A stretch of 64,000 nucleotides of DNA, taken from NCBI RefSeq assembly GCF_001647275.1, contig NZ_LRMM01000024.1, positions 1 to 64,000 on the forward strand, read 5' to 3'. Of this stretch, positions 1,519-7,263 are shown piece by piece. A model generated the notes under the pieces. That model saw only the letters and a program-made list of their open reading frames with translations. It made no database searches and had not been told where the DNA came from. The position numbers were made by a program, and so were the translations under genes. Position 1 is the first letter of the stretch. Each line of letters begins with the position of its first letter. The stretch is from Rufibacter ruber (lineage in GTDB: Bacteria; Bacteroidota; Bacteroidia; Cytophagales; Hymenobacteraceae).

Positions 1519-4395
1519 TTACTTCGCCAGTAAGCCGTCTAAGGTAATGGCCACATAGTATAAACCGCCAATGGTAGGCCCGGCCGCGTACTGAATGTAG
1601 CGCTGGTTGAAGAGGTTGGTGCCGCCGGTCTTGAGGGTGATTTTGCTTTCGGGTACGCGGTAGGTCACTTGGGCATCTACAGTGCTGTAAGCCGGCACGG
1701 TACCGTTAGCCAACGGACTCTCCCACAGGAAAGAATCCTGCCAGCGCCACACCACATTGAAGCCCAGGTTCTTCACCACCTCACGGTTCCCAAACGACAC
1801 GTTGGTGATCCAGTTAGGGGTGTTGAAGGCCGTCACGAAGATGTCTTTCTCGGCGTTTGTCTCAATGGCGTTGTAGTTCACGTTCCCAGACAGAGTGAAT
1901 TTCTCATAGAAGTTGTACGTCACGCCCAACGACGAGCCATAGTTGTTGTACTTGTTCTTGGCATTGGTGTACACACGGTAGCGGGTTTGCTGGGCATTGC
2001 GGTTGGCGGCCAGCATGGCAATTACGGCTTCATCGGTGCCCACTTGAACGGTGTTGTTTTTGGGTACACTCACTTCCACCTGACCCAGGAAACCGTCATA
2101 CACGTTGGTATAGGCATCAATGTCAATGACCAGTTTGCTGTCAAACAACACGCTCTTGTAGCCTACTTCAAACGAGTTGATTTGCTCCGGCCGGGTGGCC
2201 GAAAGGCTGGTGATCTGCAGCACGTTCCGGTTCTTCAGCGCGGCGTCATTGGCGGTCATGCCGGCAGTCACGTCTTTGTTCACCGCCGCGTTAAAATCGT
2301 TGACTGAAGTGAGCGTGTAGGAGTTATCCAGATAGCCCAGTCCTTCATTAATGTACCCCAAACCGCCCACGCGCCGCACGTTGCCGTTGTTCACGTAAGA
2401 CACCGCCTCAAACAGCGCCGGGAACCGGAAACCGTTCTGGTAAGAAACCCTAAAATTATGCTGCTCAGACAACGTGTACACGGCGGCAACCCTCGGGTTC
2501 AGTTTCGGGTCAAACTCTGGGTTATAGTCCACTCTCAGAGAACCGAAAACTTTCAATTTATCACTGAAGAAAGTCTTAGTCAGCTGCCCAAACGCCCCGA
2601 ATTTCTTGTAGTACACATTGTTGCCACCGGGCAAGGTGCGCTCATTGATGGGCCGGGAGAAATCCACGAAGTTGTTGCCGTCTGGAATGACTTCGTACAC
2701 GCGGGCATCTGCGCCCACCAACAGATTGGCGAATTTCAGGCGGTTTTCAAAGTTGTATTGGGCATCTGCGTGGTACAACCGGCTTTCCTGCCGCAGCCAG
2801 GCCCCTCCGGTTTCGGGCGCACCGGCCACCACTTTGCCGTGGTCCCAGTTGTTAATTCCCCTGATGGTGTTTTTCAAGGCCTCAAACTGCGGAGTGCCCG
2901 GTTCTGCCCGTCCGGCATCGGCGGCTTGGCGGGCCCGTTGCATGGCGGTTGCTAAATCTGTTCCGGCGTTCAGTTGGGTTTGCAAGGCTGTCTTGAACTT
3001 AGCCCCCCACTCGCTGTTGGAGCCGCCGCTGGTAATGTCCAGGTTGTCTACCATGGGTTTCACGTTGTAAGAATCGCCCGTGTTCTCCAGAGAGACATAA
3101 GACCGCACAAAGTAGTTAGCGCCCTTGAGTTCTAACCGGTGGTTCTGTACCACCACATTGTCCAGCTGTATCTTGTTTCCGCGCTGGAAAACACCATCCA
3201 TTTTGCCGATGCGGTAGCCGTAGGCCAGTTCGGCGTTGTCCCCTAAGCGGTAATGTAAAGCAGCGTCAAATTTCAGGTTGTCTACCCGCGGGCTCACCAC
3301 GTCTTTCTCCCAATAGCCGGTGCGGCGCACCAGAAACGTCTGGTTTTTGCCCTGGTAGTTCACCCCACTCACGGTCACGGCGTTATTGTTCTCGTCGCCG
3401 TACTTGTTCCAGGCATCATAGGCGGGATTGTTGGCTCCGGACAACTCAGGGAAATTGGGATTGGCAGTGTTCAGCGAGTTCGGGTTTTGGTCTGTGGTGG
3501 TGTTGGAGCGCCAGTCGGTGCCGTTCATGTAGCTGGCGTTGATTTTAAAGGCCCATTTATCATGGAAAGCTTTCGCATAGCGGAAGGCCAACTCTGACAG
3601 AATGCTGGGCTCCGCGTCTTTGCCGTCTACGTGGTTCAGACCGGTTTTCTGGTACACGCTCAACCCCTGGTACAGGAAAGGGCTTTTGGTAATAAGGTTG
3701 GCCATGCCGTTGATGGCGTTCATGCCGTACAGCGCCGAGGCCGCGCCCGGGGTAATCTCCACGCTCTCAATGTCCAGTTCGGTGGGCCCGATGGCATTGC
3801 CCAGCGGTACGCCTAACGTGGCGGCCTGCATGTCTACACCGTCTACCAGTTGCATGAACCTGAAGTTGTTGGGAATGTTAAACCCGCGGGTATTGGGCAC
3901 TTTAAAGGTAAGGCTGCTGGTGGTCATCTGCACCCCCTTCACGTTCTCCAGCGCGTCATAAAAGCTGGGCGCGGGCGTTTCTTTAATGGCCCTGATGTCC
4001 AGTTTCTCAATGGCCACCGGCGATTTCAGAATACTCTCCTCCACCCGTGACGCCGACACTACCACTTCTTTGCCCAGCAAGGTCTGGGTGACCAAGGCGA
4101 TGTCCAGGCGGGAGCCGGGCTCTTTGATTTCAAATTCCTGCGGCTGGTAGCCTACCAATGAAATCACTAACGTGAACGGAAATTTTAACCTGGTTTTCAG
4201 GCTGAAGTCGCCGTTGGCGTTGGTGGAGGTTCCGGTGACGGTACCGCGCACAAACACGCTCACGCCTGGCAGCGCTTCTTTGTTGGACTGGTCGGTTACT
4301 CTGCCCGTGATTTCCACCAGGCTGGTTTCCTGCGCGTGCAGGGAAAGGAAAGGAAGTGCGATTAAAATTAAGAAAAGTAAAAGTTTGAGGTTCAT
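1519..4395 (-). CDS. TonB-dependent outer-membrane receptor
   Basis: 958-aa outer-membrane transporter. A Sec signal peptide (MNLKLLLFLILIALPFLSLHAQ, cleaved after AQ) is followed by a carboxypeptidase-regulatory-like beta-sandwich (about residues 27-105), then a plug domain beginning with VVVSASRVEESILKSPVAIEKLD (residues about 110-230) and a 22-strand-type barrel to the C-terminus. It should import a substrate across the outer membrane with TonB energy. No SusD partner is adjacent, so it is not a typical glycan SusCD pair. The 5' region holds a 29-codon leader ORF rich in Cys codons and a terminator-like hairpin, suggesting control by cysteine or sulfur supply; the cargo could therefore be a sulfur compound, but this is inference. 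Confidence 0.9.
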   Translation of the reverse strand: MNLKLLLFLILIALPFLSLHAQETSLVEITGRVTDQSNKEALPGVSVFVRGTVTGTSTNANGDFSLKTRLKFPFTLVISLVGYQPQEFEIKEPGSRLDIALVTQTLLGKEVVVSASRVEESILKSPVAIEKLDIRAIKETPAPSFYDALENVKGVQMTTSSLTFKVPNTRGFNIPNNFRFMQLVDGVDMQAATLGVPLGNAIGPTELDIESVEITPGAASALYGMNAINGMANLITKSPFLYQGLSVYQKTGLNHVDGKDAEPSILSELAFRYAKAFHDKWAFKINASYMNGTDWRSNTTTDQNPNSLNTANPNFPELSGANNPAYDAWNKYGDENNNAVTVSGVNYQGKNQTFLVRRTGYWEKDVVSPRVDNLKFDAALHYRLGDNAELAYGYRIGKMDGVFQRGNKIQLDNVVVQNHRLELKGANYFVRSYVSLENTGDSYNVKPMVDNLDITSGGSNSEWGAKFKTALQTQLNAGTDLATAMQRARQAADAGRAEPGTPQFEALKNTIRGINNWDHGKVVAGAPETGGAWLRQESRLYHADAQYNFENRLKFANLLVGADARVYEVIPDGNNFVDFSRPINERTLPGGNNVYYKKFGAFGQLTKTFFSDKLKVFGSLRVDYNPEFDPKLNPRVAAVYTLSEQHNFRVSYQNGFRFPALFEAVSYVNNGNVRRVGGLGYINEGLGYLDNSYTLTSVNDFNAAVNKDVTAGMTANDAALKNRNVLQITSLSATRPEQINSFEVGYKSVLFDSKLVIDIDAYTNVYDGFLGQVEVSVPKNNTVQVGTDEAVIAMLAANRNAQQTRYRVYTNAKNKYNNYGSSLGVTYNFYEKFTLSGNVNYNAIETNAEKDIFVTAFNTPNWITNVSFGNREVVKNLGFNVVWRWQDSFLWESPLANGTVPAYSTVDAQVTYRVPESKITLKTGGTNLFNQRYIQYAAGPTIGGLYYVAITLDGLLAK

Positions 4396-4423
4396 GATTT
4401 TGATGTTGAAAAAAGTAACATTG

Positions 4424-4454
4424 AAAAAAAGGTTGCTGGCAGATTAGCGGCAAC
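4424..4454 (-). terminator. attenuator-like hairpin before the TonB receptor
   Basis: On the minus strand GTTGC (4454-4450) pairs with GCAAC (4436-4432), with a further inner GC/GC pair, a 6-nt loop and a seven-T tract at 4430-4424. The 5' arm lies inside the third and fourth Cys codons of the leader ORF. The stem is short, so termination would be partial at best. Confidence 0.5.
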
Positions 4455-4533
4455 AACAACAGTAGCGGTGACGTCTGGGCAGGCGGCACATTCGTTGGCT
4501 TTTCAGGCTTACTTTTAAAACATCTGGTTTCAT
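4444..4533 (-). CDS. Cys-run leader peptide (29 codons)
   Basis: A short ORF begins at the ATG at 4533-4531 and ends at TAA 4446-4444. It encodes a basic peptide that starts MKPDVLKVSLKS and ends RHRYCCCCR, with the four consecutive Cys codons (TGT TGT TGT TGC) just before the stop. It lies 48 bp before the TonB receptor ATG. The Cys run overlaps the 5' arm of a hairpin followed by seven T residues. This is the arrangement of a translation-coupled attenuator: ribosomes slowed at Cys codons would cover the hairpin arm and let transcription continue. The ORF and hairpin are seen directly; the regulatory role is inference. Confidence 0.6.
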   Translation of the reverse strand: MKPDVLKVSLKSQRMCRLPRRHRYCCCCR

Positions 4534-4580
4534 GGGTATGTATTGATTTGATATTCTCTTATAAGGCCGCTACCCGTTTG

Positions 4581-4598
4581 CTGTTTTCAGAAAAACAG
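4581..4598. repeat. CTGTTTT palindromic element, inner hairpin only
   Basis: CTGTTTTCAGAAAAACAG core followed by GCCCAAAACG; the left outer arm is lost or degraded. It lies between the tRNA-Cys-like gene and the leader ORF. Confidence 0.6.
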
Positions 4599-4667
4599 GC
4601 CCAAAACGCCTTCCCCACGTATTCACTTGCGGCACTTGTGCACCTTCCTATCCAGCAAGATGCGCTG

Positions 4668-4738
4668 CGGTCACGGGCGGACTCGAACCGCCGTAAAAGA
4701 CTTTGCCGGTCTTTGCCTAGCCACTCAGCCACACGACC
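4668..4738 (-). tRNA. tRNA-Cys(GCA)-like gene with unusual positions
   Basis: A 71-nt cloverleaf is visible. The acceptor GGTCGTG/CGTGACC has two G-U pairs. The D arm lies in GGCTGAGTGGCTAGGC. The anticodon stem AAGAC/GTCTT encloses the loop CGGCAAA, and the T arm is GGCGG-TTCGAGT-CCGCC. The anticodon GCA reads Cys. Two normally invariant features differ: position 33 is G instead of U, and the discriminator (position 73) is G where bacterial tRNA-Cys has U. No CCA end is encoded. It may be a real but unusual tRNA-Cys, a degenerate copy, or carry base errors. It is read towards the leader ORF and TonB receptor. Confidence 0.7.
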
Positions 4739-4957
4739 TAATCACTCTAGCTCACTTCTTAAGAGCGGGTACAGACGTTGTCAGGGTCACCCTACAAGAC
4801 AAGATAGACAAAACCTGCACCCTTACTCTTCATCTCTATAGAATTAGTAGACAAATAGAATAGTTATTCCTGAACCTGCCAAATGATTATTAGAAAATTT
4901 TAATATTAATTTTCCAACCGAAAGATTATCAACTATTTACACCACTATAAACTTAAG

Positions 4958-6337
4958 TCATAAGCTTACTGCTACTAGCCCGTATGCCAGATAGAAATAA
5001 AATACTAACCCCGCTAACGCACTCACACCAATCCAGGTAATCATACCCACTTTAAAGCGGTACATGGCCAGAAAAGAGATAAGAATCCAGGCCAAGGCGA
5101 AGTAGTCCAGCCTCTGGAAAGAAATACCATTGGGGAACAGAACAGCCGTCCCGAAATACACGGTGAGGTTTAGCACCACCCCTACCACTGCAGCCGTGAT
5201 GACACCTAAAATAGATTTCACGGCTGTGTTGCCGCGGGTACGTTCTATGAACGGGGCACCGGCCAGTATAAAGAAGAAACAAGGCAGAAACGTGTAAAAG
5301 GTGGTAGTAAACAAACCCACCGCGCCCATCGCCAGGGAGCCGCCGTACTGGTTGAAGCCTGCCATGAAGCCCACAAACGCCAGCACCATAATAAGCGGAC
5401 CAGGCGTGGTTTCACCCAAGGCCAGGCCATCAATCATCTCCAGCCTGGAGAGCCAATGGAATTTCTCAACCGTTACCTGCGCCGCATAGGGCAACACGGC
5501 ATACGCCCCACCAAACGTCACCAAGGCCGCTTTGGTAAAGAAGGCGATTAGGTTCTCCCAGAACGAATACTGGCTGGTGAGCAGATAAAACAAGGCAAGC
5601 GGTAACGCCCAAAGCGCCAAGGTAACTGCAAAGCGCAGGAGGCTGCGGCCAAACGTGACGCCCTCTCCCACTACTTCGCTGCCGGCGTGCAGGTAATGGC
5701 TTTCTTCGTCATCGGCCTGTTTTTTGGTGGCTTCTTTTTCCTGCAACAGGGCCGGGAAAGCTTTTCTCACCACCAACGCCAACAACACGGCAGCCAGAAT
5801 GATCAACGGGAACGGTACTTTGAAAAAGAAAATGGCCACAAAACTGGCGGCCGCCAAGGCGTAATGGAACCAGCTTTTCAAGGACTTACCCGCAATCTTG
5901 ATCAACGCCAGCGCCACTATGGCCACTACCGCCGGTTTCAACCCATAGAACAGGGCCGCCACCCACGGGATAGTCCCGAAGCTCACGTACACGGCACTCA
6001 GCCCCAGTAAAATAAACACGCTGGGCAGCACGAAGAAGATTCCGGCTACCAAACCGCCCCGTACGCCGTGCATGAGCCAGCCCAAATAGGTGGCCAGTTG
6101 CTGCGCCTCTGGCCCGGGTAAAAGCATGCAATAGTTGAGCGCGTGCAGAAACCGGGAATCTGACACCCACCGTTTTTGCTCCACTATGAACGAATGCATG
6201 ATGGCAATTTGCCCGGCCGGGCCTCCAAAACTGATGAAGCCCAGCTTAAGCCAAAACAGAAAAGCCTCTCTGAAAGAAGGCTTCTCTGGAGCGGTCAATT
6301 TGTGGGCAGAGGTGGTCTCAGGTGTCTTGGTTTCCAT
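4958..6337 (-). CDS. chrA: chromate efflux transporter ChrA
   Basis: 459-aa inner-membrane protein of the CHR family, which expels chromate using the proton gradient. It has the two homologous halves of long-chain ChrA: the first begins FREAFLFWLKLGFISFGGPAGQIA (about residues 22-45) and the second repeats the FGG signature in ALVTFGGAYAVLPYAAQVTVEK (about residue 275). Around ten to twelve hydrophobic segments are present. The length is typical. The adjacent upstream gene on the same strand is a ChrB-AraC fusion, which supports a chromate-resistance role and likely control by that protein (77-bp gap). Confidence 0.93.
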   Translation of the reverse strand: METKTPETTSAHKLTAPEKPSFREAFLFWLKLGFISFGGPAGQIAIMHSFIVEQKRWVSDSRFLHALNYCMLLPGPEAQQLATYLGWLMHGVRGGLVAGIFFVLPSVFILLGLSAVYVSFGTIPWVAALFYGLKPAVVAIVALALIKIAGKSLKSWFHYALAAASFVAIFFFKVPFPLIILAAVLLALVVRKAFPALLQEKEATKKQADDEESHYLHAGSEVVGEGVTFGRSLLRFAVTLALWALPLALFYLLTSQYSFWENLIAFFTKAALVTFGGAYAVLPYAAQVTVEKFHWLSRLEMIDGLALGETTPGPLIMVLAFVGFMAGFNQYGGSLAMGAVGLFTTTFYTFLPCFFFILAGAPFIERTRGNTAVKSILGVITAAVVGVVLNLTVYFGTAVLFPNGISFQRLDYFALAWILISFLAMYRFKVGMITWIGVSALAGLVFYFYLAYGLVAVSL

Positions 6338-6414
6338 AGTGGCGTATTAGTCAGTACAAGAATACGGCACCAGCGAAACTGAGGCTAGCACAGAATTTAC
6401 CTTTTGGATGGGTT

Positions 6415-7263
6415 TTACTTTTTGCGCAAACTTTTCCGGTAATCAGACGGGCTTTGCCCCAGCTGCTGTTTGAAAATACGGGTAAAATGGCTCTGGTCAG
6501 AGAAGCCGGTGAGGTAGGCTATTTCGGCGAGGGTGTAGCCCGAGGTGTGCAGCAGGTTCAGGGCTTTCTCAATGCGCAGTTTCCTGATATATTCGCCGAA
6601 GGAAAGATTGTCAAAGTACCTGGAGAATGCTCGGGAGACGTATGCCGGATTCACGTCCAACGCCTCTGCGATTTCCTTCAGGTTCAAAGTGAGGTTGGTG
6701 TCAATCTGGTCCTGGATGATCTCTTTGAGGTGCTGCGCCCAGGCCGGTACTTTCTGCGGCGCGTCTTTTTTCTCCTCCAGAAACTGGTGGTAAGCCTGCA
6801 GGAAAATCTGTTCAGTAGGGTGCGTGGTGTGTTTCTGTTTCTGCAAATGCTTGGCCCAGCTGTACAGGCCATCATAAATGATCATCCCCTTCTCCAGCAG
6901 TTCCTGGTCATCAGAGATATTAAACGCCATGCCATGCGAGATAGCCCATAGCCCCGCCGACTGTGCCGCCAGCGTGTGGTCATCGGTATCGGCACCACGC
7001 ACAATGAGCGCCAGGGTCTGCAACGCCGGGTCTTGGTGCAGCTGGTGCTTCTCCAGGAAATAATCAAAGGTGCAGCGGTCCTGGTAATGGCTGTATTCCA
7101 CGCCGGGTATGTCAAACGGAATGGCGTTGCGTTCCTTGGCCTGGTCCAGCACCTGGTTTTCGGGCACGTAAATGATTTCCGCCGTGGCGTCTATGAAGCG
7201 TTTGATAAGCCACGGACAGGCCAGGCGGTCAATTTTAGGACGTTCGCGGGTAATCCATTTCAT
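6415..7263 (-). CDS. ChrB-domain / AraC-type HTH fusion protein
   Basis: 282 aa. Residues about 1-140 (MKWITRERPKIDRLACPWLI..., with RGADTDDH) match the C-terminal domain of the chromate-resistance protein ChrB. Residues about 175-280 form a double helix-turn-helix of the AraC family (AEALDVNPAYVSRAFSRYF and LAEIAYLTGFSDQSHFTRIF). ChrB is known as a chromate-sensing regulator in other bacteria, so the fusion plausibly couples chromate sensing to an AraC DNA-binding unit. It lies just upstream of chrA and divergent from an FAD oxidoreductase. The start at 7263 gives the conserved ChrB N-terminus. Function of the fusion is inferred. Confidence 0.85.
   Translation of the reverse strand: MKWITRERPKIDRLACPWLIKRFIDATAEIIYVPENQVLDQAKERNAIPFDIPGVEYSHYQDRCTFDYFLEKHQLHQDPALQTLALIVRGADTDDHTLAAQSAGLWAISHGMAFNISDDQELLEKGMIIYDGLYSWAKHLQKQKHTTHPTEQIFLQAYHQFLEEKKDAPQKVPAWAQHLKEIIQDQIDTNLTLNLKEIAEALDVNPAYVSRAFSRYFDNLSFGEYIRKLRIEKALNLLHTSGYTLAEIAYLTGFSDQSHFTRIFKQQLGQSPSDYRKSLRKK

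Follow-up and report, generated by a model that had tools for sequence, protein, structure and literature searches.

Attenuators of the trp and his type carry a leader peptide that holds codons of the end product, and CymR is a cysteine regulator of the Rrf2 family. Leaders with Cys codons were predicted in Actinobacteria without terminators, and Rho was suggested to act on them (PMC1262725, excerpt). Polycysteine leader ORFs and cysteine genes under translation attenuation are known in mycobacteria (Canestrari 2020 as cited in an excerpt of PMC13236596), and a flavobacterial transcriptome paper mentions hints that amino-acid operons are preceded by attenuation through leader peptides (PMC9723704, excerpt). 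A related case is tRNA-Other of Bacillus cereus, a pseudo-tRNA with a role outside translation and regulated transcription (PMC3399842, excerpt). In our search of the open-licence literature, judged mostly from titles and abstract openings, we saw neither Cys leaders reported for Bacteroidota nor a tRNA-like element of the kind described below.

Here, we found that a TonB-dependent receptor gene of Rufibacter ruber, which probably belongs to the sulfate/cysteine regulon, is probably controlled by a cysteine-responsive leader-peptide attenuator. As far as the excerpts describe them, the mycobacterial (PMC13236596) and actinobacterial (PMC1262725) Cys leaders resemble it in having a short ORF, Cys codons near the stop and cysteine genes downstream, with no conserved terminator. 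The mycobacterial ORFs are leaderless according to the cited title (PMC13236596), whereas the Rufibacter leader lies in a presumed long 5' UTR and in another phylum; a promoter-like site and a palindrome are located several hundred nt upstream of the leader ORF. Compared with both groups as excerpted, the Rufibacter system adds a TonB receptor as the target, a tRNA-Cys-like element, a helix between the leader start and the receptor start, and SAM-I riboswitches combined with metY leaders. Relative to known Cys leaders, both the phylum and the kind of target are new, and a tRNA-like part is added. With this case, the range of Cys-codon leaders comes to include Bacteroidota and outer-membrane uptake.

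Like attenuators of the trp/his type, the Rufibacter leader peptide holds codons of the end product; unlike in them, the terminator is not conserved, and the target is a receptor instead of a biosynthetic operon. The presence of an Rrf2-family gene and a palindrome linked to sulfur genes recalls CymR and other Rrf2 cysteine regulators, but site and regulator are here those of Bacteroidota, and gene and site are paired by linkage alone. The Rufibacter element is tRNA-derived like tRNA-Other and differs from it, as excerpted (PMC3399842), by its position in a presumed mRNA 5' region, next to a leader that also relates to cysteine.

A conserved Cys-run leader upstream of the receptor

The features of the receptor and its leader are as follows.
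1519..4395, minus strand: TonB-dependent receptor of 958 aa with CarboxypepD_reg, plug and barrel domains, assigned from Pfam, orthologs and neighbours
4444..4533, minus strand: leader ORF of 29 codons ending in CCCCR, open in 9/9 Rufibacter-group orthologs
4450..4461, minus strand: Cys codon run TGT TGT TGT TGC, the presumed stall site

The first-pass annotation of the window (the whole stretch of 64,000 nucleotides of R. ruber DNA that was analysed) had described a 29-codon ORF with four Cys codons, an Arg codon and a stop, followed by a hairpin, seven T residues and the receptor ATG, and each of these parts was found in place. The leader ORF starts with the ATG at 4533, encodes MKPDVLKVSLKSQRMCRLPRRHRYCCCCR and stops at 4446-4444, which leaves 48 nt to the receptor ATG at 4395. 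Four consecutive TGY codons alone are frequent in the genome (167 places, compared with 10 for the reversed pattern). The longer pattern TGYx4-MGN-TAA occurs at two places (control 0), and both are leaders located 5' of sulfur-linked genes, namely the receptor and metY.

The conservation of the leader was evaluated in 16 genus-level genomes, nine of which carry the receptor, and in 80 receptor loci kept from a larger set, 79 of them with 300 nt upstream. We defined a leader as an ATG-started upstream ORF with consecutive Cys codons. All nine Rufibacter-group orthologs have an open leader with three to four consecutive Cys codons and a stop 25-49 nt 5' of the receptor ATG; the Cys run is at most two codons from the stop in eight of them, while in L003 the distance to the stop is ten codons. 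Among the 79 orthologs, at least two consecutive Cys codons were found in 39 (2.5 in shuffles, 5 on the reverse strand), at least three in 21 (shuffle mean 0.08, reverse strand 0) and at least four in nine (0 in both shuffles and reverse strand). By the ATG-start rule, a leader with even two consecutive Cys codons was not found in 40 of the 79. As a control, 586 other genes at the same loci were scanned, and runs of at least three and at least two Cys codons preceded 4 and 33 of them, respectively; three of those four genes belong to a PhyH cluster upstream of the receptor (L135, L139, and L150). The claim that a conserved Cys leader precedes the TonB receptor was borne out in the nine Rufibacter-group orthologs, and the leader recurs in other Bacteroidota. 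The existence of the Cys-run leader and its conservation are confirmed, and the locus has the short upstream ORF with a Cys run before the target gene that is expected of a Cys-responsive leader-peptide attenuator.

Outside the Rufibacter group, the leader peptide varies in sequence while the Cys runs recur. In the set of 79 orthologs as a whole, no more than two residues follow the last Cys in 26 of the 39 leaders with at least two Cys. An alternative reading is that the Cys-rich peptide is itself the product, a metal- or redox-active small protein, as the Cys clusters and Arg/His residues of the Rufibacter peptides would allow. However, the sequence outside the Cys run differs between genera, and several peptides have only 10-20 residues with Cys directly before the stop, which makes this alternative very improbable.

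Cys-run leaders of metY, the cysH operon and other loci

Two further Cys-run leaders were found in the same genome, one before metY and the other before the cysH-cysD-cysN-cobA-cysJ-cysI-cysG operon. The metY leader (L049, outside the window) has about 44-49 codons with a Cys run at its end and lies behind a SAM-I riboswitch, which was present 5' of the leader in all five metY loci run against Rfam. Such leaders occur at 10 genus-level loci and at one locus of another family (L033), and a weak consensus structure was obtained for ten of them. Apparently, metY is under tandem control by SAM and Cys.

The leader peptide of the cysH operon is MVYPSHIERMRFCCCSPCCCCC. It is present in 13/13 genus-level genomes with cysI, and 3/16 genomes are without cysI. 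Across the 13 genomes, the DNA over its Cys codons (L238) is almost invariant, and because this holds for synonymous positions as well, it suggests that the Cys codons are under a constraint at the RNA level besides coding. The last Cys codons and the stop form a hairpin with the downstream sequence, which pairs in 94.0% of cells and has no T tract; two of its pairs changed on both sides (64/500 shuffles match this), and its covariation score was matched by 1/500 shuffles. Taken with metY and the receptor orthologs in other genera, the predicted targets of these leaders are sulfur and cysteine genes.

The search for the TGYx4-MGN-TAA pattern listed 44 places in 36 of 98 genomes, and 30 of these were obtained as loci. 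Eleven precede metY-like genes (two called by family search, the remainder by the appearance of the first residues), two precede the receptor, and the other 17 include many on the opposite strand within coding sequence. A second pattern search gave about 93 places in 55 of 148 genomes, with about 55 for the reversed control; among the 47 places examined (30 loci and 20 regions, 3 shared), only two intergenic leaders, L224 and L247, were found besides the cysH leader. L224 precedes a gene for an extracellular solute-binding protein (SBP_bac_11), which perhaps belongs to a sulfate ABC transporter. L247 has a run of seven Cys and precedes a gene for a PhyH-type dioxygenase, as do the Cys-run leaders in L135, L139, and L150, where the PhyH-type genes form a cluster leading to the receptor. 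The occurrence of PhyH-type genes behind Cys leaders hints at an organosulfur pathway. A possible Cys-run leader (MKNFLIISFLQTNNCCCCS) was also seen in L038, before a gene for a thioredoxin-reductase-like flavoprotein.

The receptor and its link to sulfur

The protein was classified as a TonB-dependent receptor by its plug and beta-barrel domains in Pfam. It is not a member of the SusC/RagA subfamily by score (92 bits vs the TIGR04056 cut-off of 368.25). A PDB sequence search with the receptor returned only colicin I receptors, and since these match over the plug alone, no conclusion on the cargo was drawn from them.

A sulfate or cysteine gene (CysI, J, N, D, H, CysK, MetZ, or siroheme-methylase) lies beside the receptor at 35/80 loci. 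This count rises to 53/80 when the cluster named CysG-TauE is included, about a third of which consists of short members that are maybe TauE alone; cluster names were taken from one representative each. ChrA and ChrB were found at 9/80 and 7/80 receptor loci, respectively. In the six Rufibacter-group loci with 6 kb of flanking sequence, no sulfur gene adjoins the receptor, and its neighbours are chromate genes; in the window, genes for a chromate transporter and a ChrB/AraC fusion occupy 4958-7263, upstream on the same strand. For the Rufibacter group, the proposed sulfur link is drawn from the leader, the palindrome, and orthology.

The first-pass annotation had suggested that the receptor may take up a sulfur source. 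A tie of the receptor to sulfur supply was supported by the Cys leaders before metY and cysH in the same genome and by the sulfate-assimilation genes that adjoin many receptor orthologs, though not those of the Rufibacter group. A sulfur source is a plausible cargo, and the cargo of this widespread TonB receptor can be sought among sulfur compounds, given its tie to the sulfur regulon.

Promoter-like site, palindrome and Rrf2-family regulator

Two features lie far upstream of the leader.
4852..4883, minus strand: Bacteroidota-type promoter-like pair of TTTG, about 20 nt and TCTATTTG; a weak match, with the same arrangement visible in 9/9 Rufibacter-group loci
4835..4855, minus strand: palindromic operator TTTGTCTA-N5-TCTATAGA, which overlaps the promoter-like pair and is probably a site for an Rrf2-family regulator

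Compared with the Bacteroidota -33/-7 consensus, the second box is off by one place, and a strict consensus regex gave no match at the promoter-like site or between this site and the leader. The perfect palindrome has two matches in the genome, the other of which precedes a 1-Cys peroxiredoxin. With up to two mismatches, it was found in the 750 nt preceding the receptor at 30/80 loci vs five matches elsewhere in 1.05 Mb. At three mismatches, the genome-wide count (57) was no higher than that of the control (58), so only near-perfect palindromes are meaningful. In Adhaeribacter and in L146, the palindrome comes immediately before the leader. An Rrf2 gene adjoins the receptor in Adhaeribacter, and its R. 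ruber ortholog shares a contig with the peroxiredoxin palindrome, at a distance of about 1.4 kb. From this linkage, we infer that an Rrf2-family regulator may bind the palindrome. For the 5' region as a whole, the earlier reading was right about the leader and its Cys run and had missed the palindromic operator, the tRNA-Cys-like element, and the helix between the leader and the receptor start.

Hairpin and transcription termination

One feature of the leader resembles a terminator.
4424..4457, minus strand: hairpin spanning the final Cys codons and the stop, followed by a T tract; terminator-like in this species only (1/9 loci at -5 kcal/mol or better)

In classical transcription attenuation, which the first-pass annotation had proposed for this locus, the Cys-codon hairpin and the T tract would terminate transcription at plentiful cysteine, and a stalled ribosome would block the hairpin. 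The R. ruber sequence agrees with this, as the hairpin at 4457-4432 has a stability of -7.7 kcal/mol, its 5' arm is the Cys run, and it is followed by a C and seven T residues at 4430-4424. However, a terminator at -5 kcal/mol or better is confined to the R. ruber window among the nine Rufibacter-group loci, the eight relatives being without it and one of them having a weak hairpin of -3.4 kcal/mol. Terminators of this strength were found at 6/38 wider loci vs 2.2 expected from mononucleotide shuffling, and no alternative antiterminator was seen. A stricter scan for terminators (loop of at most 8) did not list the R. ruber leader hairpin. The folding check thus upheld the stability of the hairpin and not its conservation, and an intrinsic terminator was rejected as a conserved mechanism. 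We consider classical attenuation quite improbable as the control of this receptor.

Long-range helix and translational attenuation

A second structure joins the leader start to the receptor start.
4509..4524, minus strand: 5' arm of the long-range helix, located in leader codons 4-9 and identified by cognate vs non-cognate pairing
4402..4418, minus strand: 3' arm of the long-range helix, directly 5' of the receptor start codon

In all nine Rufibacter-group loci, leader codons 4-9 pair with a sequence that ends 1-10 nt before the receptor ATG. The mean energy of cognate arms was -12.3 kcal/mol vs -9.7 kcal/mol for non-cognate arms (permutation p 0.00065 over nine loci, with relatedness not corrected), and the helix has compensatory double changes, for example, from GATGTT/AACATC to GATGTCTT/AAGACATC. 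When a slightly wider segment was folded, four of six Rufibacter-group loci had a shuffle fraction of at most 0.05, and the other two had 0.28 and 0.13. RNAalifold returned five pairs only for the nine leaders, whose arms were aligned poorly by MAFFT. At 33 non-Rufibacter loci, the cognate mean was -7.6 kcal/mol vs -6.1 kcal/mol for non-cognate arms (permutation p 0.0002), a gap that we suspect is driven by GC-rich vs AT-rich groups. Most of these loci were unremarkable against their own shuffles; the helix is clear in the Rufibacter group only, and it was not relied on as a phylum-wide mechanism.

We calculated the cost of opening the receptor start in the nine sequences. It was 6.1-11.3 kcal/mol in free RNA and 2.2-6.6 kcal/mol when a ribosome was initiating on the leader. 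With one ribosome stalled on the first Cys codon, the cost was 7.8-12.1 kcal/mol, and with a ribosome at the leader stop, it was 1.9-9.1 kcal/mol. A ribosome queue back to the leader start lowered it to 1.3-3.0 kcal/mol in 9/9 sequences; part of this lowering is built into the calculation, in which every base as far as the Cys run was kept unpaired. A single stalled ribosome does not open the receptor start, and initiation on the leader alone already cuts the cost. The queue energies and the compensatory changes in the helix between the leader start and the receptor start favour translational attenuation.

The mechanism that we propose builds on what can be read in the sequence, namely the leader, its Cys run and conservation, the helix with its compensatory changes, the palindrome, the tRNA-like element, and the link of the receptor family to sulfur genes; to these it adds, as proposals, the transcription start, the common transcript, stalling, queueing, the direction of the response and the regulator. 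Transcription would start at the promoter overlapped by the Rrf2-type operator and would yield one presumed transcript in which a spacer separates the tRNA-Cys-like element from the leader ORF and the receptor. With Cys-tRNA in good supply, the leader would be finished, codons 4-9 would pair before the receptor ATG, and the receptor start would be closed. When Cys-tRNA is scarce, ribosomes would stall on the Cys run, a queue would cover codons 4-9, and the receptor start would be free. We infer such translational attenuation by a ribosome queue for the Rufibacter group, while control is probably achieved by other means elsewhere in the phylum.

The main rival to translational attenuation is Rho-dependent control, in which the ribosome would leave at the stop and a pyrimidine-rich, G-poor gap would load Rho, unless a stalled ribosome next to the stop covers the gap. 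The position of the last Cys within two residues of the end in 26/39 leaders fits this rival, and so does the gap of six Rufibacter-group loci, which taken by itself is G-poor (G 0.04-0.12). Rho was also suggested for the actinobacterial Cys leaders without terminators (PMC1262725, excerpt). The gaps in Hymenobacter are not G-poor, however, and the helix between the leader and the receptor start offers a simpler route in Rufibacter, so we regard Rho-dependent control as somewhat unlikely and retain translational attenuation by a ribosome queue as the preferred reading.

A tRNA-Cys-like element in the presumed 5' UTR

The last feature lies between the palindrome and the leader.
4667..4738, minus strand: tRNA-Cys-like element in the presumed 5' UTR, a cloverleaf with GCA anticodon, no U33, and G73, identified with ARAGORN and Rfam

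The R. ruber copy scored 46.2 bits against the Rfam tRNA family in a narrow search; the fast search reported the element at 6/9 loci and did not list it in the whole window. ARAGORN called it tRNA-Cys at eight of the nine loci and tRNA-Phe at one. When 4380-4960 was compared with Rfam up to E 1, tRNA and mir-1788 were the only families listed, with no T-box match. The element is present in 9/9 receptor-bearing and 0/7 receptor-less genus-level genomes, and in all nine the palindrome is 97-123 nt upstream of it and the leader 134-371 nt downstream. Among the 80 receptor loci, ARAGORN found it upstream in six, all of the Rufibacter group (the upstream sequence is shorter than 1500 nt at five loci). 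The element has the appearance of an insertion specific to this group, which entered the 5' region and was retained afterwards, and it represents a conserved tRNA-Cys-derived element in an apparent mRNA leader.

The cloverleaf is kept in 94.2% of cells, with little covariation because the element varies little (102/500 shuffles reach it), and conservation stops abruptly after the acceptor plus GC, followed by A in 8/9. U33 is near-universal in tRNA, and U73 is a determinant for CysRS. None of the nine elements has this combination of a functional tRNA-Cys: U33 is absent and position 73 is G in 9/9. The GCA anticodon is present in 8/9.

The element could be no more than an additional tRNA-Cys gene of the ordinary kind, located in a tRNA-mRNA operon and without regulatory significance, considering the intact cloverleaf and the ARAGORN calls, and its sole other match in the 16 genus-level genomes is the normal tRNA-Cys. 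Against this, the element has lost U33 and U73 throughout and GCA in one case, it is strictly tied to the receptor, and a normal tRNA-Cys is present elsewhere in eight of the nine element-bearing genomes (15/16 genus-level genomes in total, G009 being the one that misses it). We consider an ordinary tRNA gene unlikely. A more speculative reading, which we hold to be rather unlikely as a whole, is a two-part cysteine sensor composed of a captured, translation-dead tRNA-Cys copy and the poly-Cys leader. The mimic, transcribed only once the sulfur regulator has left the promoter, would bind CysRS or another handler of tRNA-Cys, or would be cut by RNase P/Z, and would thereby tune stalling or the processing of the receptor mRNA.

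In G009 (L099), the element is changed in the T and D loops, and the absence of a normal tRNA-Cys from this assembly is possibly an assembly gap. A plasmid search gave one match only, in which 70 nt of a Pedobacter plasmid correspond to the tRNA-like stretch and no receptor is annotated nearby. Between the element and the leader, a hairpin-type repeat (CTGTTTT ... AAAACAG) is located at 4598-4581, and it has 12 matches in the window.
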